NCBI RefSeq assembly: GCF_022024035.1
Contig: NZ_CP091787.1
Span: 3,380,001 to 3,444,000, forward strand
Direction: 5' to 3'
From: Prevotella sp. E13-17
Lineage (GTDB): Bacteria > Bacteroidota > Bacteroidia > Bacteroidales > Bacteroidaceae
Length of the DNA: 64,000 nt
Below, piece by piece: positions 8,348-62,271 of the stretch; the stretch's first letter is position 1; each line of letters opens with the position of its first letter. The notes under the pieces were generated by a model. That model ran no database searches. It saw only the letters and a list, made by a program, of their open reading frames with translations, and had not been told where the DNA came from. The translations under genes were made by a program, and so were the position numbers.

Positions 8348-9220
8348 CTATTTTGAGGCCAGCGCGCGTCGGCTTTGCAGCAGCACGCTGAGCAGTATCA
8401 ATACGATACCGATGTAGAACGAGAAGTTAATCTCGCGACCTTCGCCAAAGATAAAGAAGGCCAATGCGATTGTATAACAAGGTTCCAGATTGTAGGTCAG
8501 GTTCACCGTGAAGGCCGACAGGCGCTTCAGTGCCTGAATCTGCAACAGATACATACCCACCGTGCAGAACAGCGCATGACAGAGCATGAACCACAGGTTA
8601 TGACCTTCGGGCAGCACCACCACCGGCTGCTGACTGGGGAAAAACAGCAGATAGACCGGTATGATGGCCGATACCAGCACCAGCCCGCCCGACATCTGAT
8701 ACATCAGCACCGTACGGCTACGCACACCCACGCTCACCTTCTTATTGCAGATGGCATAGAGCGCACATACTGCCGACGAGACCACGCCAATGCTGATGCC
8801 ATAGCGATAGCGGGCATCGAGCGAGAAGATGCACAGCACGCCAGCCACGGTGATGAGCGAGAACAGCAGCTCGGTCCACGACAGTCGGCGACGATAGATC
8901 ATTGGTTCAAAAAGCGCGGTAAAGAAACCTATCAGCGAGAAACAGATTACACCGATAGACACGTTCGAGGCCTTGATGCTGCCATAGAACAACATCCAGT
9001 GCAGTCCCAACAAGGCACCACAACCACACAGTTGCAGAAACTTGCGCCAGCCCACACGAGGCAGACCAGTGAAGACGAGCAATATCAGACTGGTGAAAAG
9101 CATGCGATACCAGACGATGTCCACCTCGTTCAGCGTGATCAGTCGCCCAAACAGCCCCGTAAAACCGGCCAGCAGCACGCTCAGGTGCAACTGCACAAAT
9201 CCTTGTCGCGTCTCATTCAT
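8348..9220 (-). CDS. EamA/DMT family permease
   Basis: A 290-residue inner-membrane protein with about ten predicted helices in two homologous halves, the EamA (RhaT/YdcZ-like) arrangement. Examples are LILLVFTGLPRVGWRKFLQL, FSLIGFFTALFEPMIYRR and ALAFFIFGEGREINFSFYIG. Family members export amino acids, metabolites or nucleotide sugars; the substrate is not predictable here. The -7 box (TAACTTTG, 9232 to 9225) ends only four bases before the ATG, so the mRNA is probably leaderless. The M6 protease gene follows after 21 bases on the same strand. Confidence 0.93.
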   Translation of the reverse strand: MNETRQGFVQLHLSVLLAGFTGLFGRLITLNEVDIVWYRMLFTSLILLVFTGLPRVGWRKFLQLCGCGALLGLHWMLFYGSIKASNVSIGVICFSLIGFFTALFEPMIYRRRLSWTELLFSLITVAGVLCIFSLDARYRYGISIGVVSSAVCALYAICNKKVSVGVRSRTVLMYQMSGGLVLVSAIIPVYLLFFPSQQPVVVLPEGHNLWFMLCHALFCTVGMYLLQIQALKRLSAFTVNLTYNLEPCYTIALAFFIFGEGREINFSFYIGIVLILLSVLLQSRRALASK

Positions 9221-9224
9221 AGTG

Positions 9225-9232
9225 CAAAGTTA
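9225..9232 (-). promoter_or_regulatory. -7 promoter element TAACTTTG of the EamA gene
   Basis: Reading leftward, TAACTTTG matches the Bacteroidetes -7 consensus and is followed by CACT and then the ATG at 9220. In this promoter class transcription starts about four bases after the box, which places +1 at or next to the start codon. Confidence 0.65.
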
Positions 9233-9301
9233 CGCTTTTTTATCAGAAAAAGAATGCTTTGTTCACAGAAAAGCTACACTTTGCGCCAGGAAAAGTGCCT
9301 A
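9226..9301. repeat. Phased ~22-bp AAAG array between preA and the EamA gene
   Basis: The whole gap between the two genes consists of four degenerate units starting AAAGTTACGC (9226), AAAGAATGC (9249), AAAGCTACAC (9270) and AAAGTGCC (9292), with spacings of 23, 21 and 22. On the minus strand these read as spaced -7-like boxes (TAACTTTG, TAGCTTTT and so on). It matches the array upstream of mutS at 62184. Confidence 0.5.
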
Positions 9302-19030: not shown

Positions 19031-19255
19031 TAAAAAGCCACAGAGCCTTAGAAAAAGTGGCGGTTTGACGCATGAAAAGTGGCGGTTTGACGACGCAATA
19101 CTTTTGGTTTGGCATTGCAATAGTTAAGGTTTTACTCCGCATCTAGCCCCTGGAAAGGTCAATTCTATGGGCTGGACGCGGTCTGTATAGCCCCTGGACG
19201 CGGTCTGTTCAGGGGCTGAAAACAGGCGTTCCAGGGGCTGGAACAGAAACAAGTG
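19031..19255. repeat. Phased 22-bp degenerate array downstream of the HTH regulator
   Basis: AAAAGTGGCGGTTTGACG starts at 19053 and again at 19075. A GG-core series then starts at 19145 (AGCCCCTGGA), 19167 (ATGGGCTGGA), 19189 (AGCCCCTGGA), 19211 (AGGGGCTGAA) and 19233 (AGGGGCTGGA), each exactly 22 bases apart. The GCCCC/GGGGC core changes orientation in place while the flanking A and TGGA stay. The same cores recur at 49999-50175. No gene is seen in 18784-19357 apart from this array. Confidence 0.65.
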
Positions 19256-19357
19256 TTTTGGTTTTAGACTTTAGAACCGACCGTTCTATACCTTAGAACT
19301 GCCACTCTTGGCCTCCAAAAGGGAGACTATCGGCTGGCCATTCGGCCGAAGTAACAG

Positions 19358-26458: not shown

Positions 26459-26486
26459 TTAGTATGTTCGTAAAAAAAGTTTGTTC

Positions 26487-26600
26487 GTTTGTTATTATGT
26501 CTTTAAAAAAAAGTTTGTTCGTCTGTTATTATGTCTTTAAAAAAAGTTATTATGTCTTTACCCCCGTTATTATGTCTTTCTCCTCTGTTAGTGTGTCTTG
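26487..26600 (-). repeat. ~21-bp tandem repeats continuing from the xylanase stop codon
   Basis: On the coding strand the gene ends AAGACACACTAA and is followed by four units containing AAGACATAATAAC. The plus-strand GTTATTATGT motifs start at 26491, 26525, 26546 and 26566, with the related GTTAGTGTGT of the gene end at 26587 (spacings 34, 21, 20, 21). Each unit repeats the stop-codon region with a variable spacer. Confidence 0.65.
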
Positions 26601-48135: not shown

Positions 48136-49962
48136 ATGACAAAGGAAGAGAACGAGGCACGTTTAGCCTATCTGAAAGGAATCGTATCAAGACTGCCCGA
48201 GAAGCCTGGCAGCTATCAATACTACGACAGTGAGGGGACGATTATATACGTTGGCAAGGCAAAGAACCTGAAGTCGCGCGTCTCTTCCTATTTCCATACG
48301 GAAGTGGATCGCTTCAAAACAAAAGTGCTGGTGTCTAAGATCCACGACATAAGCTACACGGTGGTCAACACCGAAGAGGACGCATTGCTGCTTGAAAATT
48401 CGCTCATCAAGAAGTATAACCCGCGCTATAACGTGTTGTTGAAGGATGGCAAGACCTACCCCAGCATCTGTGTAACGAACGAACCCTTTCCGCGCATCTT
48501 TAAGACGCGTACCATCAACAAGAAGTGGGGCACCTATTTCGGTCCTTATTCGCACATAGGTTCGATGAATGCCGTGTTGGAACTGATCAACAAGCTATAC
48601 CATCCGCGCACCTGTCGTCAGCCGATGACGAAAGAAGGAATTGCCGCCGGTAAATACCAGGTTTGTCTGGAGTATCACATCAAGAACTGCGGAGGGCCAT
48701 GTATAGCCAAACAAACCTATGAAAACTACCAGCAAAACATCATGCAGGCACGTGAAATACTGAAGGGTAACACCCGCGAAGTGCTGCGTCAGATGCGTGA
48801 AAAGATGCAGTTATTGGCAGAAGAACTGCGCTTTGAAGAAGCAGAAGAAATCAAGAAAAAGTACCTGTTGATAGACTCGTTTGTAAGCAAGAGCGAGGTG
48901 GTGAGCCACACCATCGACAATGTGGATGTCTTTTCGATCACCAACGACGAGAAGATTGCATACATCAACTATATCCACGTGTCTAACGGCGCTATCAATC
49001 AGTCGTTCACATTCGAATTCAAGAAGCGCCTGAACGAGACCAACGAGGAGTTGTTGCAACTTGGAATCATCGAGATGCGCGAGCGATTTAATAGTTCTTC
49101 ACGTGAGATTGTGGTGCCTTTCGACCCCGAAATGGAGCTAGACGGCGTCACCTTCACCATTCCACAGCGCGGTGATAAAAAGACGTTGCTGGACCTCTCG
49201 GAAATGAATGGCAAACAGTATAAGTTTGACCGCCTGAAACAGGCAGAGAAACTGAATCCAGAACAGAAACAGGTGCGCCTAATGAAGGAACTGCAAGAGA
49301 AGTTGGCACTGCCCAAGATGCCCTATCAGATAGAGTGTTTCGACAACTCCAACATCTCGGGAACGGACGCCGTGGCTGCGTGCGTGGTGTTCAAATCCAT
49401 GAAACCCAGCAAGCGAGACTACAAGAAATACAACATTAAAACGGTGGTGGGCCCCGACGATTATGCGTCGATGAAAGAGGTGGTCTATCGCCGTTATAAA
49501 CGGCTTGTAGAGGAAGAAGAGCCCCTACCCGACCTTATTGTGGCTGACGGCGGAAAAGGTCAGATGGAAGTGATACGTGAAGTGATTCAGGACGAACTGA
49601 AACTGGACATCCCTATCGCTGGTTTGGCAAAAGACAATCGCCACCGCACCAATGAGCTACTTTACGGTTTTCCGCCACGCGTGATTGGCTTGAAGACCAA
49701 CTCAGAACTCTTCCATGTGCTGACTCAACTGCAAGACGAAGTGCACAGATTTGCCATCACGTTCCACCGCGACAAGCGCAGCAAACATGCGCTGCACTCG
49801 GAATTGGATGATATCCAGGGCATTGGACCCAAGACGCGTGATGCACTGATTGATCGACTAAAGAGTGTAAAGCGTATTAAAGAGGCTGATATTCAACAAC
49901 TTACAGATGTCATTGGCGCTTCAAAAGCACAAATCATCTACCATCACTTCCATCAAGAGTAG
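48136..49962 (+). CDS. uvrC: Excinuclease ABC subunit C
   Basis: A 608-residue UvrC. The N-terminal GIY-YIG nuclease is residues ~15-95 (PEKPGSYQYYDSEGTIIYVG, KAKNLKSRVSSYFH). A Cys-containing segment (CLEYHIKNCGGPCIAKQTYE) and the UVR domain near 205-240 (LAEELRFEEAEEIKKKYLLI) follow. The RNase H-like second nuclease contains ECFDNSNISGTDAVAACVVF and DLIVADGGKGQMEV, and the end is a helix-hairpin-helix pair (IQGIGPKTRDALIDRLKS). It makes both incisions in nucleotide excision repair with UvrA/B. The bases of its last codons and stop are tandemly repeated just downstream. Confidence 0.98.
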   Translation: MTKEENEARLAYLKGIVSRLPEKPGSYQYYDSEGTIIYVGKAKNLKSRVSSYFHTEVDRFKTKVLVSKIHDISYTVVNTEEDALLLENSLIKKYNPRYNVLLKDGKTYPSICVTNEPFPRIFKTRTINKKWGTYFGPYSHIGSMNAVLELINKLYHPRTCRQPMTKEGIAAGKYQVCLEYHIKNCGGPCIAKQTYENYQQNIMQAREILKGNTREVLRQMREKMQLLAEELRFEEAEEIKKKYLLIDSFVSKSEVVSHTIDNVDVFSITNDEKIAYINYIHVSNGAINQSFTFEFKKRLNETNEELLQLGIIEMRERFNSSSREIVVPFDPEMELDGVTFTIPQRGDKKTLLDLSEMNGKQYKFDRLKQAEKLNPEQKQVRLMKELQEKLALPKMPYQIECFDNSNISGTDAVAACVVFKSMKPSKRDYKKYNIKTVVGPDDYASMKEVVYRRYKRLVEEEEPLPDLIVADGGKGQMEVIREVIQDELKLDIPIAGLAKDNRHRTNELLYGFPPRVIGLKTNSELFHVLTQLQDEVHRFAITFHRDKRSKHALHSELDDIQGIGPKTRDALIDRLKSVKRIKEADIQQLTDVIGASKAQIIYHHFHQE

Positions 49963-50175
49963 TTTTACTTCCATCAAGAGTAGTTTTACTTCCGTCAAAG
50001 TACGGCTTTGACGCTCAACAAGTGGCACTTTTAGCTCGTCAGAGTGCCACTATGACCAACCAAAAGTGCCACTCTTGGTCTGAATCCAGGGGCTGGATTG
50101 AATCATTCCAGGGGCTGAATTACACCGCTCCAGGGGCTAGACTGAACCATTCCAGGGGCTGGATTGAAAGTAAAA
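49945..50175. repeat. Phased 22-bp array downstream of uvrC
   Basis: ACTTCCATCAAGAGTAGTTT, containing the uvrC stop, is repeated about 21 bases later. Units then start with AGTACGGC (49999), AGTGGCAC (50021), AGTGCCAC (50043) and AGTGCCAC (50065), and a CCAGGGGCT series starts at 50086, 50108, 50130 and 50152. All steps from 49999 are 21-22 bp. No gene is seen in 49963-50421. Confidence 0.7.
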
Positions 50176-50280
50176 GGGTAAGTATTGCTACAAGAAAGCG
50201 GAAGTATGATGGTTCAAAACACCCGATATTGCAGCACGATTCGGACACTTTTGCAAAAGAACAGGATTGTAAGGGGAAGG

Positions 50281-50417
50281 TACTACCGCTCGACAAAAAA
50301 AAGAATAAATTCTTTGCTTTTGTTCTCGCTTATTCGTACCTTTGGCTGCGCCGAAGGTACTCACGTTCGGAAAATTGCAAATAAATTTGCATTTTCGCTC
50401 ACTTAATCGTACCTTTG
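50281..50417 (+). promoter_or_regulatory. 137-bp dispersed promoter module, copy 1 (dtd)
   Basis: In order: the palindrome AAAGAAT-AA-ATTCTTT; promoter 1, TTTG-N20-TACCTTTG (box at 50337-50344), whose -7 box lies in a hairpin TACCTTTGGC/GCCGAAGGTA; the palindrome GCAAAT-AA-ATTTGC; and promoter 2, TTTG (50386-50389)-N20-TACCTTTG (50410-50417). Nearly identical to 57206-57342. Confidence 0.75.
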
Positions 50418-50421
50418 CAGC

Positions 50422-50874
50422 ATGAGAATTGTAATTCAACGTGTTAGCCACGCCTCAGTGACAATCAACGGGACTGTGAAATCAAGTATCGGTAAGGGAT
50501 ATTTGATTCTGTTGGGCGTCTGCGAAGAAGACACCGAAGAGGATGTTGACTGGCTGGTGCACAAGGTGGTGGGCCTACGCGTTTTCGACGATGAGAACGG
50601 GGTGATGAACCGTTCTGTCATGGAGGTAGGCGGCGAAGCACTCGTGGTGAGCCAATTTACGCTGTTTGCAAGCTACAAGAAGGGCAATCGCCCCTCGTGG
50701 TTGAGAGCAGCAAGGCACGAGGTCAGCGTGCCGCTCTACGAGCTTTTCTGCAAGAAACTGAGCAACGAGATGGGCAAAGCCTGCGGCACGGGTGAATTTG
50801 GCGCCGACATGAAGGTGGAACTGCTGAACGATGGCCCTGTCACTATCTGTATGGATACGAAGAACAAGGAGTGA
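50422..50874 (+). CDS. dtd: D-aminoacyl-tRNA deacylase
   Basis: A 150-residue DTD with both active-site motifs: SQFTLFASYKKGNRPSW (SQ-x-T) and NDGPVTICMDT (GPVT). It frees tRNAs mischarged with D-amino acids or glycine. The start codon lies four bases after a perfect -7 box (TACCTTTG ending at 50417), so the mRNA should have no leader or almost none. The promoter belongs to a dispersed 137-bp module shared with ychF. Downstream, a GC-rich repeat separates it from the mazG-like gene. Confidence 0.96.
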   Translation: MRIVIQRVSHASVTINGTVKSSIGKGYLILLGVCEEDTEEDVDWLVHKVVGLRVFDDENGVMNRSVMEVGGEALVVSQFTLFASYKKGNRPSWLRAARHEVSVPLYELFCKKLSNEMGKACGTGEFGADMKVELLNDGPVTICMDTKNKE

Positions 50875-52194: not shown

Positions 52195-52375
52195 GAGTTG
52201 CGCTTAAACTGAGAACTGAGAGTTGAGAACTGAGAGGTATGATTAGACCTGCTGGTTCTAATTATAATGAGAGGTGAGTAGTACTAATAATACTTCTCAC
52301 CTCTCACTTTTCACTTATAAGAACCTCTCAGTTCTCAACTCTCAGTTCTCAGTTAAAAGCACCTCTCAGTTAAAG
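52195..52375. repeat. ~180-bp inverted repeat, left copy
   Basis: Palindrome-rich sequence: 'aactgagaactgagagttga' at one side and its complement at the other, with a unique centre containing 'gacctgctggttct'. The complete sequence is present as a reverse complement at 59345-59530 with few differences. It lies between the convergent stops of deoC and the polyprenyl synthase gene. Confidence 0.85.
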
Positions 52376-58508: not shown

Positions 58509-59339
58509 ATGATGCGTGATCTTTTATACATTCTCTGGAACCCATCACTCGAAGCTTTCCACTTTGGACCTTTAGCCATTCGCTGGTACTCACTCTGCTG
58601 GCTGATTGGTCTGTTGCTGGCCTACTTCATGGTGAGATGGCTATACAAGAACCAGAAGATTGCCGAGGAGAAGTTCGAACCACTGTTCGTCTATTGCTTC
58701 CTGGGCATCCTGATCGGTGCCCGACTGGGGCACTGCATCTTCTACCAGCCCGACTACTATCTGACGTCGGTCAAGGGTTTTGTTGAGATGCTTCTGCCCA
58801 TCCACTTCATGTATGATGGCAGTTGGAAGCTGACAGGCTACGAAGGACTGGCATCACATGGCGGCACGCTGGGATTGATGATTGCCCTTTGGTTGTATGT
58901 GAAGCACCACAAGGTGCCCCTGTGGCAGGTGCTCGACAACATCGCCATTGCTACAGGCATCACCGCCTGCTTCATTCGCTTGGGCAACCTGATGAACAGC
59001 GAGATTATTGGTAAGGTGACCGATATGCCATGGGCTTTCGTTTTCGAGCGTGTAGATGCCCTACCCCGCCACCCCGGACAGCTCTATGAGGCCATTGCCT
59101 ATGCCCTACTCTTCCTGTTGATGGTCGTTTTGTATAAGAAGATGCCGCAACGTGTAGGCACAGGTTTCTATTTCGGCCTCTGTCTGACCTACATCTTCAC
59201 CTTCCGCTTCTTCATAGAATACACCAAAGAGGTGCAGGAAGCCTTTGAGAACTCACTCCCCATCGACATGGGACAGATTCTCTCTATCCCCTTCATCATC
59301 ATTGGCACGTATTGCATGGTGAAAAGCATTACTAAGTGA
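58509..59339 (+). CDS. lgt: Prolipoprotein diacylglyceryl transferase
   Basis: A 276-residue inner-membrane enzyme with seven predicted helices. The Lgt signature regions are present: [55 protein letters not shown] (HGG motif), [20 protein letters not shown] and [16 protein letters not shown]. It moves diacylglycerol from phosphatidylglycerol to the lipobox cysteine, the first step in maturing lipoproteins such as SusD here. The in-frame ATG pair at 58509/58512 makes the start uncertain by one residue. The downstream gap is filled by the inverted repeat. Confidence 0.97.
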
Positions 59340-59344
59340 GAAGT

Positions 59345-59530
59345 GAGAGGTGCTTTTAACTGAGAACTGAGAGTTGAGAACTGAGAGGTATTACTAAGTG
59401 AGAAGTGAAAAGTGAGAGGTGAGAAGTATTATTAGTACTACTCACCTCTCATTATAATCAGAACCAGCAGGTCTAATCATACCTCTCAGTTCTCAACTCT
59501 CAGTTCTCAGTTAAAAGCAGTTCTCAGTTA
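59345..59530. repeat. ~180-bp inverted repeat, right copy
   Basis: Reverse complement of 52195-52375, located between the convergent stops of lgt and mutS. The two copies bracket about 7.0 kb. Each copy is also internally palindromic and could end transcripts from either side. Confidence 0.85.
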
Positions 59531-59541
59531 AAAACTTAATC

Positions 59542-62163
59542 TCATTTTCCTGAGACTATCTTTTTGATTTCATTGAGCTTGTTGAGCGCCTCGAGCGGCG
59601 TCAGGTTGTTGACGTCGAGCCCCAGAATTTCGTCGCGCACCTGACAAAGCACGGGGTCGTCGAGCTGGAAGAAAGACAGTTGCATGCCCTCCCTGCTCTG
59701 AGCAATCTCGGCCGTAGGCTTGCCAGCGGCGCCCACCTGTGCGTTCTCGCTCTCCAGCTGTTTCAGTATGACGTTGGCGCGCTTCACGATGCTGCGTGGC
59801 ATACCGGCAATCTCGGCCACATGAATACCGAAAGAGTGTTCACTGCCGCCACGTTCCAGCTTGCGCAGGAAGATGACCTTGCCATCCACCTCTTTCACAC
59901 TGACATTATAGTTCTTGATGCGCGAAAAAGTCTTCTCCATCTCGTTCAGCTCGTGATAGTGGGTGGCAAAGAGCGTGCGTGCCTGTGACTTGGGATGTTC
60001 GTGCAGATACTCCACAATGGCCCAAGCAATAGAGATGCCGTCGTAGGTTGAGGTGCCACGACCCAACTCGTCGAACAAGACCAGCGAACGCGGCGTGGCA
60101 TTGTTCAGGATGTTAGAGGCCTCTGTCATCTCGACCATAAAGGTTGATTCGCCCAGTGATATATTGTCGCTAGCACCCACACGGGTGAATATTTTGTCCA
60201 CCAGACCGATTTTCGCGGCCTCTGCGGGCACAAAACAACCCACTTGGGCCAACAATACTATCAACGCCGTTTGACGCAACAGCGCCGATTTACCGGCCAT
60301 ATTTGGGCCCGTGATGATGACAATCTGCTGTCGTTCCTGGTCCAGGAGTATGTCGTTGGGCACATACTGTTCCTCTACAGGCAGCTGTGTTTCAATCACG
60401 GGATGGCGCCCCTGACGGATGTCTATCACGTCGCCATCGTCCACCACCGGACGGATGTAGCGATGCTCTTGCGCCGTCTTGGCAAAGCTGAGCAGACAGT
60501 CGATACGTGCCAAGATGGTGGCATTGGTCTGCACCTCTTGGATATAAGCCTGTACGGCCACAATCAGTTCGTTGAAGATGCGAGCCTCGAGCGAGAGAAT
60601 CTTTTCTTCGGCACCCAGAATCTTCTCTTCGTATTCTTTCAGTTCCTGGGTGATATAGCGCTCGGCCTGAGCCAGCGTCTGCTTGCGCACCCACTCTTGT
60701 GGCACACGGTCTTTATACGTATTCCTGACCTCGAGATAATAGCCGAACACATTGTTATAACCTATCTTCAGCGACTGGATGCCTGTCTGTTCAGCCTCGC
60801 GGTTCTGTATCTGCAGCAAGTAGTCCTTGCCACTATAGGCAATGTGGCGCAGCTCGTCGAGCTCCTGGTTGACGCCATTGCGCACCACCCCACCCTTCTG
60901 CACCAGCTGTGGCGGGTCGCTGACAATCTCGCGCTCTATGCGGTCGCGAATATCGCGGCACTCGTTCATACGTTCACCCAACTGACGAATCACTTGGTTG
61001 TCGGCCTGCAGACAAGCCTGCTTGATAGGCTCCACAGCCTGTAGCGCACGCTTCAGCTGCACCATCTCACGAGGAGTCACTCGTCCTACGGCCACCTTCG
61101 AGATGATACGCTCCAGGTCGCCCACCTGTTGCAACTGTTCGTCGATCAGCTCGCGGAAGTACGGCTCGCGGAAGAAGTAATCCACGATGTCCAGTCGGCC
61201 CTCGATGGCTGCCTTCTCTTTCAGAGGGAACACCAGCCAACGGCGCAACATGCGTCCACCCATCGGCGACACAGTGCGGTCTATCACGTCGAGCAGCGAG
61301 CGTCCGCCCTCCTGCATGGTCTGTATGAGCTCCAGCGAACGGATGGTGAACTTGTCCAGTCGTACGTATTTATCCTCTTCGATGCGCGATATCTGCGTGA
61401 TATGACCTATCTGCGTGTGCTGTGTCTGCTCCAGGTATTGCAGAATGGCACCAGCAGCCACCACGCCGCTGTGCAGATGATCCACGCCAAAACCCTTGAG
61501 CGACTTCACCTTGAAATGCTTCAAGAGCTTCTGCATGGCAAACTGCTCGGTAAAGACCCACTCGTCCATCTCGAACGTCACATAGCGCACACCAAAGTAG
61601 CGCTCGAAGTCCTGACGTCGGTCGCGGTTGTAGAGCACCTCCTTAGGTTGTATGCTGGCCATCAGCTTCTCTACATAGTCGTAGGTGCCCTCTCCCGTCA
61701 GGTATTCGCCCGTAGAGATATCGAGGAAAGCCACGCCACAGGCCGACTTGCCGAAATGCACCGCACACAGGAAGTTGTTCTCCTTGTAGTTCAGCACATT
61801 GTCGCTCATAGCCACACCAGGAGTCACCAGCTCGGTGATGCCACGCTTTACCAGTTTCTTGGTGAGCTTAGGATCTTCCAGCTGGTCGCAGATAGCCACG
61901 CGCTTGCCGGCACGAATCAGCTTAGGAAGATACGTATCGAGTGCATGATGAGGAAAGCCAGCCATCTCGTCGCCCTTGCCACTATTGCCATTATTGCGCC
62001 TGGTCAGTGTGATGCCCAATATCTGTGAGGCCTCCACAGCATCGTCGCAATAAGTCTCGTAGAAGTCGCCACACCTAAAGAGCAGCAGCGCCTCGGGGTG
62101 CTGTGCTTTCAGGTCGAAGAACTGTTTCATCATCGGGGTCAGTTCCCCGTCTTTCTTTGCCAT
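59542..62163 (-). CDS. mutS: DNA mismatch repair protein MutS
   Basis: An 873-residue MutS. The mismatch-reading N-terminus has [16 protein letters not shown] (the F-x-E motif, here FYE near residue 31), then connector and lever domains, and the C-terminal ATPase: Walker [34 protein letters not shown], Walker [18 protein letters not shown] and the [13 protein letters not shown] switch. It recognises mispairs and recruits MutL. A TAGCTTTG box (62190-62183) lies 20 bases before the ATG, and further -7-like boxes occur every 22 bases behind it. Confidence 0.98.
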
Positions 62164-62183
62164 TCTTTTACTTTTATTATCGC

Positions 62184-62271
62184 AAAGCTATGCTTTTAGA
62201 ATAGTAAAGTGCCACTATTCCACCTGTAAAGCTATGCTTTTCTCGTTGCAAAGTTACGTTTTTTTTCTGTA
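62184..62271. repeat. Phased 22-bp AAAG array in the mutS promoter region
   Basis: Units begin AAAGCTATGC (62184), AAAGTGCCAC (62206), AAAGCTATGC (62228) and AAAGTTACGT (62250), exactly 22 bases apart. On the mutS strand these are TAGCTTTG, GCACTTTA, TAGCTTTA and TAACTTTG, a ladder of perfect and near -7 boxes. Confidence 0.65.

Follow-up and report, generated by a model that had tools for sequence, protein, structure and literature searches.

Downstream of uvrC, the chromosome of Prevotella sp. E13-17 carries a ladder of short dyads recurring every 22 bp. The ladder belongs to a family of composite arrays dispersed round this chromosome, and related species carry ladders with the same step built on other sequences. 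It lies in a stretch of 64,000 nucleotides (assembly GCF_022024035.1, contig NZ_CP091787.1, positions 3,380,001 to 3,444,000 of the forward strand), which we call the window and in which positions are given below. We lean, with modest conviction, towards regarding these ladders as phased operator arrays for putative dimeric DNA-binding proteins that may organise or insulate the chromosome or the ends of its transcription units.

The array downstream of uvrC

An earlier reading of this DNA, made from the letters alone and called here the original prediction, described units recurring every 22 bases after uvrC; both the recurrence and the core positions that it gave are correct. Over 49988-50180, identity is 0.509 at lag 22 and 0.477 at lag 44. 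Dinucleotide shuffles of the same segment (n=1000) gave 0.246 +/- 0.034 at lag 22, and none of the 1000 reached the observed value at any lag from 15 to 30. Each half of the ladder holds the period by itself, the CCAGGGGCT half with a lag-22 identity of 0.658 (0/1000 shuffles) and the GTGCCAC half with 0.434 (4/1000 shuffles). Set out in lines of 22 bp, the ladder consists of four A sites (AAAGTGSCACTTT), four B sites after them (TCCAGGGGCTGGA) and, last, a degenerate unit. A and B sites are 13-bp dyads centred on one lattice, with 9 free bp between sites (Table 1).

The ladder begins at the third unit, from 49988. The two identical 21-bp copies before it, which overlap the stop codon of uvrC, are a separate local duplication with a period of 21, not 22. 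The claim that the first repeats copy the end of uvrC and its stop thus holds for these two copies and fails for the 22-bp ladder. Seeding of the ladder by copying of the stop codon is not supported, as in this genome such copying is confined to two 21-bp units and A/B arrays of this kind are present at about 90 further positions. A switch of core type part-way along, also noted before, does exist, but it is the A-then-B architecture common to those other arrays. In several other species (e.g. at loci L091, L116 and L118) an array runs into the uvrC stop codon; judged from the sequences, this looks like encroachment, and copying is also possible there.

A dispersed family of composite arrays

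The chromosome is one contig of 3,454,626 bp. A blastn search of it with the uvrC array gave 80 matches in many places, and a sequence model built from 15 arrays (R1) gave at least 158 matches, among the best 150 of 537 candidates. Since most arrays nearly equal their reverse complement, R1 matched them in both orientations. The union of blastn, R1 and exact-core searches places at least 90 composite arrays in the chromosome; this list was compiled by hand and is incomplete, and it includes all 10 arrays found by R1 in 464 kb. Score cut-offs varied between tests from 12 to 24.

Arrays usually open with about four A sites (AAAGTGSCACTTT), continue with about five B sites (TCYAGSSSCTRGA) and close with further A sites, all in register on one 22-bp lattice. 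Among 31 fetched arrays, 21 have five B cores, seven have four and three have six. Neighbouring B cores no more than 60 bp apart are separated by exactly 22 bp in 114 of 117 cases and by 44 bp in the other three. Distances that involve an A core (A-A or A-B) are looser: 22 bp in 118 of 179, 44 in 19 and 11 in 13. Exact TCCAGSSSCTGGA occurs 91 times against 0 for its reversed-letter control, and exact WAAGTGSCACTTW 24 times against 2. Shorter ladders with A sites only (3-7 of them) are also present, an extra core type, CGACTTAAGTCG, is found at L156 and L157, and TCTAGA-like dyads stand at the half-step between A sites at L155 and in a repeated copy family.

Unit profiles (303 A and 156 B units) contain no conserved tetranucleotide outside the core, and the spacer maximum, 0.42 bits, lies beside the core. 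The units counted for cores in step, for these profiles and for strand symmetry (below) were chosen by pattern, which inflates their own conservation. Next to several arrays, e.g. L012, L021, L024 and L155, there is a recurring inverted repeat rich in G+C (CCCTCCCGAGGGAGGG-like, with CCCCACCCC).

One step and many cores in the genus

A motif-free scan, scoring runs of self-match at each lag (main cut-off score 24), gave 15 hits at lag 22 in this genome (464 kb sampled) and, in three genomes of the same genus, 4 in G024 (400 kb), 8 in G016 (200 kb) and 5 in G070 (200 kb). Around uvrC, 45 hits were obtained in 1.43 Mb from 80 loci, a set that includes a few pairs from one assembly and a low-complexity hit (L084 at 18110). 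Lag 44 ranks next, and any other lag reached at most 1 hit in this genome, G024 and G070, 3 in G016 and 14 at the 80 loci (lag 21). Block-shuffled sequence of this genome gave no hits at any lag. Eight genomes, each from a different other family of the order (718 kb in all), gave none at lags 22 and 44 even at score 18, where other lags gave up to 5. Extrapolation at score 18 suggests about 80-200 ladders per genome. Hence the excess of 21-22 bp periodicity, whose absence from the genome would have refuted the original prediction, does exist in the sampled DNA, at 22 bp. Over the portions of this genome and its genus that were scanned, no lag but 22 is strongly enriched, which supports the selection on spacing that it had suggested.

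Directly after uvrC, the best lag between 15 and 30 is 22 at 25 of 78 loci, with 24 as runner-up (10 loci). We set out the sequences of 22 post-uvrC loci with a best lag of 21-23. Other species have different cores with the same step, often after uvrC: TTCCANNNNNTGGAA in G035, TTACCANNNNNTGGTAA in G028, TCAGGCTCTGA in G026, CAAAGTTATTAACTTTG at L131 and GTAAAATAATCTATTTTAC at L141. Because cores differ, the A/B model, run against 60 relatives, had matches at E 0.001 or better in 6 genomes only, and an A-type model (R2) matched 13 of 60 same-genus genomes; both counts include this genome. In G006 (L326), the block between the A sites consists of dyads of a very different kind (AAATCAATTTGATTT-type), an A-X-A plan with another centre. 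The 22-bp step is a property of the genus; relatives share the step, not the sequence. At L061 (G026), a near-homogeneous ladder with some 13 units of 22 bp (TCAGGCTCTGAAACACACAGTC) appears to have expanded recently.

Could the ladders be functionless minisatellites left by replication slippage? One array, L025 (one of 12 near-identical copies treated below), has exactly one additional 22-bp unit, the single instance of the unit gain in fixed steps anticipated by the original prediction. Near-homogeneous arrays such as L061 and the 21-bp duplication at the uvrC stop would fit slippage as well. Slippage has no preferred unit length, however, yet in the genus it is lag 22, together with 44, that stands out, and neither is present in the 718 kb of other families, where other lags occur; B units, moreover, hold the step despite near-random spacers. 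As lag 22 stands out in this way we rejected slippage as the main cause, in agreement with the earlier doubt about simple slippage, and consider it the least probable of the origins weighed here.

Duplex DNA or RNA

On the coding strand, the centres of B sites read GGG in 49 cases and CCC in 47. Dyad mismatches of the G-T and A-C kinds number 153:133 in A sites and 52:58 in B sites, and transitions that RNA pairing tolerates stand against those that it does not at 128:123 and 51:57. In 125 units from dyadic ladders of other species, complementarity extends to the pair beside the central base (0.64). The strand-symmetric substitutions and the orientation of the centres point to duplex DNA, not RNA; strand symmetry and pairing up to the centre are what recognition of the duplex by a symmetric dimer predicts.

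Hairpins in the 3' untranslated region, ending or protecting transcripts, would be the obvious RNA interpretation. It gains from the A-only ladders, whose median distance to the 3' end of a flanking gene is 15 bp (13 gene ends, 11 loci), and from strong predicted RNA folding of the arrays (ten of 11 folds have a z between -1.6 and -9.9, and the remaining one +0.06). Such folding follows from the dyads alone, none of the three counts above has the strand bias in question, and pairing reaches the centre of the dyad, whereas a hairpin needs a loop. Two short ladders lie directly upstream of genes (presumed mutS, and the gene at 8348-9220). At the single locus scanned for terminators, 49800-50500, there is no terminator-like site (shuffle mean 0.6), and the window has no Rfam matches above the gathering score. 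On the missing strand bias, terminator sites and Rfam matches we rejected an RNA element or terminator and rate it as very unlikely.

Sites and spacers in Xylanibacter brevis

Arrays with unlike spacers were found to agree in their cores (identity 0.72) far more than in their spacers (0.31), and adjacent units within arrays differ in spacers. The nearest named relative found, Xylanibacter brevis ATCC 19188, has a similar number of R1 matches (156), and its UvrC is 96% identical (tblastn). We compared seven pairs of orthologous arrays, picked for alignable flanks. Two are little changed (L036/L195 and L055/L212). In L057/L200, with flanks at 0.96, a patch of two or three units has been replaced in phase. 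In the four strongly diverged pairs, core identities are 0.71, 0.76, 0.69 and 0.75 and spacer identities 0.55, 0.66, 0.56 and 0.58. When the seven pairs are taken together, cores (0.82) exceed spacers (0.77) by little.

After uvrC, the central block consists of B sites here and of TCTAGASTCTAGA in X. brevis, with A sites beside the block in both. A wholesale shift of the B core in X. brevis was considered and dropped: its other arrays have ordinary B sites and its uvrC array the TCTAGASTCTAGA centre. Together, the in-phase patch replacement and the changed central block look, on these alignments, like exchange of patches between arrays.

Two array-adjacent segments (L203/L043 and L207/L170) are 97-99% identical to X. 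brevis, against mostly about 85-93% at other compared loci, and one of these matches stops at a distance of about 230 bp from the array. Recently exchanged DNA may have arrays at its edges.

Placement among genes and round the chromosome

Gene context was determined, by a simple rule for open reading frames (ORFs), for 41 of the about 90 composite arrays and for 13 A-only loci, two of which fall inside ORF calls and give no distances. The composite arrays occupy 28 co-directional, 11 convergent and 2 divergent gaps; of gaps of at least 100 bp in the sampled genome, 33 of 133 are divergent. For ladders in general the deficit is slight, with 1 of 17 in divergent gaps of this genome. A general preference for 3' ends was dropped, the ratio of nearer-3' to nearer-5' in co-directional gaps being 5:8 in this genome; it holds for A-only loci only.

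Composite arrays are spaced more regularly than expected. Only 1 of 90 intervals is shorter than 10 kb, against 20.5 expected (0/5000 simulations as low), and the coefficient of variation of the intervals is 0.76 against 0.99 (P = 0.003), in a test that uses an incomplete list of arrays and places random points anywhere, genes included. In X. brevis, 3 of 38 intervals are below 10 kb against 9.6 expected (P = 0.003), on 10 contigs of known length with matches within about 200 bp merged; this count leaves out two arrays separated by 6.7 kb on another contig (C4). The region opposite the GC-skew origin has 17 of 90 arrays where 26 are expected (P = 0.02), a weak depletion whose limits were set after seeing the list and from a rough GC-skew guess.

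Copying and mobility

Twelve fetched copies of about 330 bp are near-identical: spacers as well as cores are alike, both orientations occur and the left end is mostly common. A second copied lineage is formed by L042, L055, L208 and L212, of which L042 lies in the window; it shares spacers with the X. brevis arrays L212 (85%), the orthologue of L055, and L208 (81%). By their sequences, arrays do spread.

One candidate for the agent of spread is a non-autonomous transposable element, the ladder being a set of transposase-binding sites and target immunity, as in Mu or Tn7, keeping copies apart. The near-identical copies in both orientations, most with a common left end, and the few array pairs within 10 kb in two species would suit it. 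In the 12 aligned copies, however, right ends are ragged, and inspection by eye, with no systematic search, found no clean terminal inverted repeats or target duplications. Most compared arrays share cores and not spacers, and hence are mostly old, and the seven short A-only ladders that were set out have no such element ends. We regard this origin as unlikely.

Another candidate is a selfish palindrome of the kind of repetitive extragenic palindromic (REP) sequences and bacterial interspersed mosaic elements (BIMEs), moved by a RAYT (TnpA-REP, Y1) transposase through single-stranded hairpins, with the ladder as a by-product of clustering. Like the present arrays, REPs and BIMEs are high-copy, dispersed, intergenic palindromes; as far as the accessible parts of the two sources go, they differ by a GTAG or CGTC end tag, by stems often with G-T pairs and by dimers of variable spacing instead of a 22-bp step, and no 22-bp lattice is reported there (PMC3733652, PMC6006769). 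REP-like traits are present in this genome, with palindromic intergenic arrays in about 90 composite copies, some recent and near-identical. An array copy adjoins one of the three Y1_Tnp genes here, and in X. brevis, which has four, the distance between one of them and an array is about 530 bp. But a Y1_Tnp match is missing in 25 of 60 same-genus genomes, among them the ladder-bearing G024, G026 and G035. G024, in one contig and 99% complete, has ladders and no Y1_Tnp match, which weakens this explanation. Ladders around Y1 genes stand at background: at score 18, the 36 loci (111 kb) have 4, whereas this genome has 16 (400 kb sampled) and G016 has 13 (200 kb sampled). The dyads lack a G-T bias, and no conserved GTAG or CGTC is found at the foot of the palindrome in the profiled units. 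In view of ladder-bearing genomes devoid of Y1 and the missing ladder excess near Y1 genes, RAYT/REP was rejected as quite unlikely. The repeat-generating enzyme envisaged by the original prediction was not found, RAYT-type Y1 being the sole class tested.

Other features of the window

Besides the uvrC array and L042, the window has two short A-type ladders, one in Table 1 and one at 9221-9300, directly upstream of the gene at 8348-9220. The gene-proximal unit of both coincides with a TANNTTTG-like -7 box, assigned on a consensus that we assume to apply.

Between the uvrC ladder and the next gene, which we take to be dtd (D-aminoacyl-tRNA deacylase-like), 50276-50420 holds two diverged copies of a promoter-like module ending TCGTACCTTTG. 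A related module adjoins the array in L055 and L212, and the module is probably another dispersed repeat. A TACCTTTG box at 50410-50417, before dtd, is presumably promoter-like. A plus-strand ORF of 120 aa with a GTG start (50022-50384) spans most of the array and looks mechanical.

Two further repeats are of other kinds. Related arrays of 7-bp units (AACTGAG / CTCAGTT), about 7 kb apart, occur at 52207-52371 and 59334-59533, with both orientations at each place, and a 34-bp unit is repeated 2.2 times with 97% identity at 26472-26545.

Table 1. Ladder sites and neighbouring features, with positions in the window. Names of genes are presumed.
Feature	Position	Strand	Basis or remark
Second composite A/B array, same class	~19050..19260 (L042, 19034-19277)	no strand	R1 match 19116-19267, 91.5 bits
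uvrC (name as in the original prediction), 608 aa	48136..49962	+	ORF; gene immediately 5' of array
Two identical 21-bp copies (49946-49966, 49967-49987), last uvrC codons and stop included	49946..49987	+	
A-type dyad 1 (AAAGTACGGCTTT)	49997..50009	no strand	sequence
A-type dyad 2 (CAAGTGGCACTTT)	50019..50031	no strand	sequence
A-type dyad 3 (AGAGTGCCACTAT)	50041..50053	no strand	sequence
A-type dyad 4 (AAAGTGCCACTCT)	50063..50075	no strand	sequence
B-type dyad 1 (TCCAGGGGCTGGA)	50085..50097	no strand	sequence and R1 match
B-type dyad 2 (TCCAGGGGCTGAA)	50107..50119	no strand	sequence and R1 match
B-type dyad 3 (TCCAGGGGCTAGA)	50129..50141	no strand	sequence and R1 match
B-type dyad 4 (TCCAGGGGCTGGA)	50151..50163	no strand	sequence and R1 match
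Degenerate A-like final unit, ladder end	50164..50185	no strand	R1 match reaches 50171 (+), 50188 (-)
Next gene (dtd), 150 aa	50422..50874	+	ORF
Short A-type ladder	62170..62260	no strand	directly upstream of minus-strand gene 59542-62163 (mutS)

Discussion

The fixed step, the dyads, the free spacers, the strand symmetry and the regular placement are best read as marks of cooperative binding arrays. Homodimeric proteins would each bind one site and contact their neighbours, and up to about 13 sites per array could be covered cooperatively by a nucleoprotein rod. A step of 22 bp, about two helical turns, would put successive dimers on nearly the same face. The protein-binding ladder on one DNA face raised by the original prediction agrees with dyadic sites, with the symmetry between strands and with steps of 22 bp. 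A sites around about five B sites in this species suggest two related binders or two binding modes. Arrays would spread as copies and exchange patches in a manner resembling gene conversion, spacers being replaced while the step and the site types are kept. As for function, our best guess is that the arrays organise or insulate the chromosome or the ends of transcription units, much as dispersed SlmA, Noc or parS-like sites do. It is from these patterns that we infer a protein binder, its cooperativity, patch exchange and function.

Several observations weigh against phased operators, in addition to the limits of the spacing and terminus tests given above. Cores of the diverged orthologous pairs (0.69-0.76) are less conserved than their flanks (0.76-0.91), spacers and cores of L055/L212 are equally conserved (0.93 and 0.92), and arrays align without gaps in only 2 of the 7 pairs. 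The 41 composite arrays analysed for gene context include 12 near-identical copies, and a cruder gene call puts 4 of 43 arrays in divergent gaps. Outside composite arrays the divergent deficit is slight, with 2 of 9 ladders against 26 of 99 gaps in G024 and 10 of 55 against 102 of 399 at the 80 loci. The nearer-3' to nearer-5' ratio in co-directional gaps varies from 5:8 here to 4:1 in G024 and 23:12 at the 80 loci. A-only ladders are present in the largest gap between arrays. Dyads are significant (at most 1 of 60 column shuffles, best dyad phase taken, low-complexity L084 hit omitted) in 10 of 15 ladders of this genome, 18 of 44 at named loci and 1 of 4 in G024. The clear 22-bp ladders L113, L116 and L118 show no dyads, and so a dimer site is perhaps not the rule everywhere. 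Finally, the arrays are also mobile or copied.

A bolder version would be a chromosome-wide lattice of regularly placed phased-dyad arrays, the readers of which form a family of dimeric proteins polymerising in 22-bp steps. Contacts between proteins would fix the step and so keep it invariant in the genus. The DNA specificity of the binders would be rewritten from one species to the next, and the rung sequence with it, gene conversion carrying the new rungs to all arrays; A sites would serve as common end caps round a variable centre (B here, TCTAGASTCTAGA after uvrC in X. brevis, AAATCAATTTGATTT-type in G006). We consider this possible but doubtful.

Known systems offer partial parallels. Nucleoid-occlusion sites (the NBS of Noc and the SBS of SlmA) are tens of palindromic sites spread round the chromosome and sparse near the terminus; they are mostly single sites, as opposed to ladders of 13 phased sites, and terminus depletion here is weak. 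Plasmid iterons and centromere arrays (22-bp iterons of R6K, sopC, parC) are phased tandem protein-binding sites, with one array of one motif per plasmid, beside rep or par genes. Here, in contrast, about a hundred chromosomal arrays have differing motifs, and with about 90 arrays all round one chromosome an identity with iterons is unlikely.

The nearest published element that we found, as far as the accessible text of its description goes, is BrickBuilt, a miniature inverted-repeat transposable element with a 23-nucleotide minisatellite in Porphyromonas gingivalis (PMC4596501). The same text gives several points of likeness: a host in the Bacteroidales, intergenic location, tandem units of about two DNA turns, gain and loss of whole units, predicted folding and 19 dispersed copies in one strain. 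BrickBuilt differs by near-homogeneous 23-nucleotide units (0-11% mismatches and 0-6% indels within an element) and by its leader, tail and inverted ends, and the part of the source covered reports no dyad classes, A-B-A plan or genus-wide step with changing cores (PMC4596501). The word stem 'palindrom' is absent from its text (PMC4596501). The Prevotella arrays, with a step of 22 and spacers that differ between adjacent units, are not homogeneous 23-nucleotide repeats. Our search of open-licence papers found no description of such ladders in Prevotella. We regard the class as new in kind, as relatives share the step and not the sequence; phased binding sites as an idea are old.

The dispersed bacterial repeats compared here are defined by sequence. 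These ladders keep their step and change their sequence, and the constraint therefore falls on geometry. If a protein reads the ladders, each genome of this rumen genus would have roughly a hundred loci belonging to an undescribed regulatory or chromosome-organising system. The change of rungs from species to species would then be a natural experiment in which the specificity of DNA binding evolves with about 90 targets. Since the bait sequences are known, the question is directly testable.

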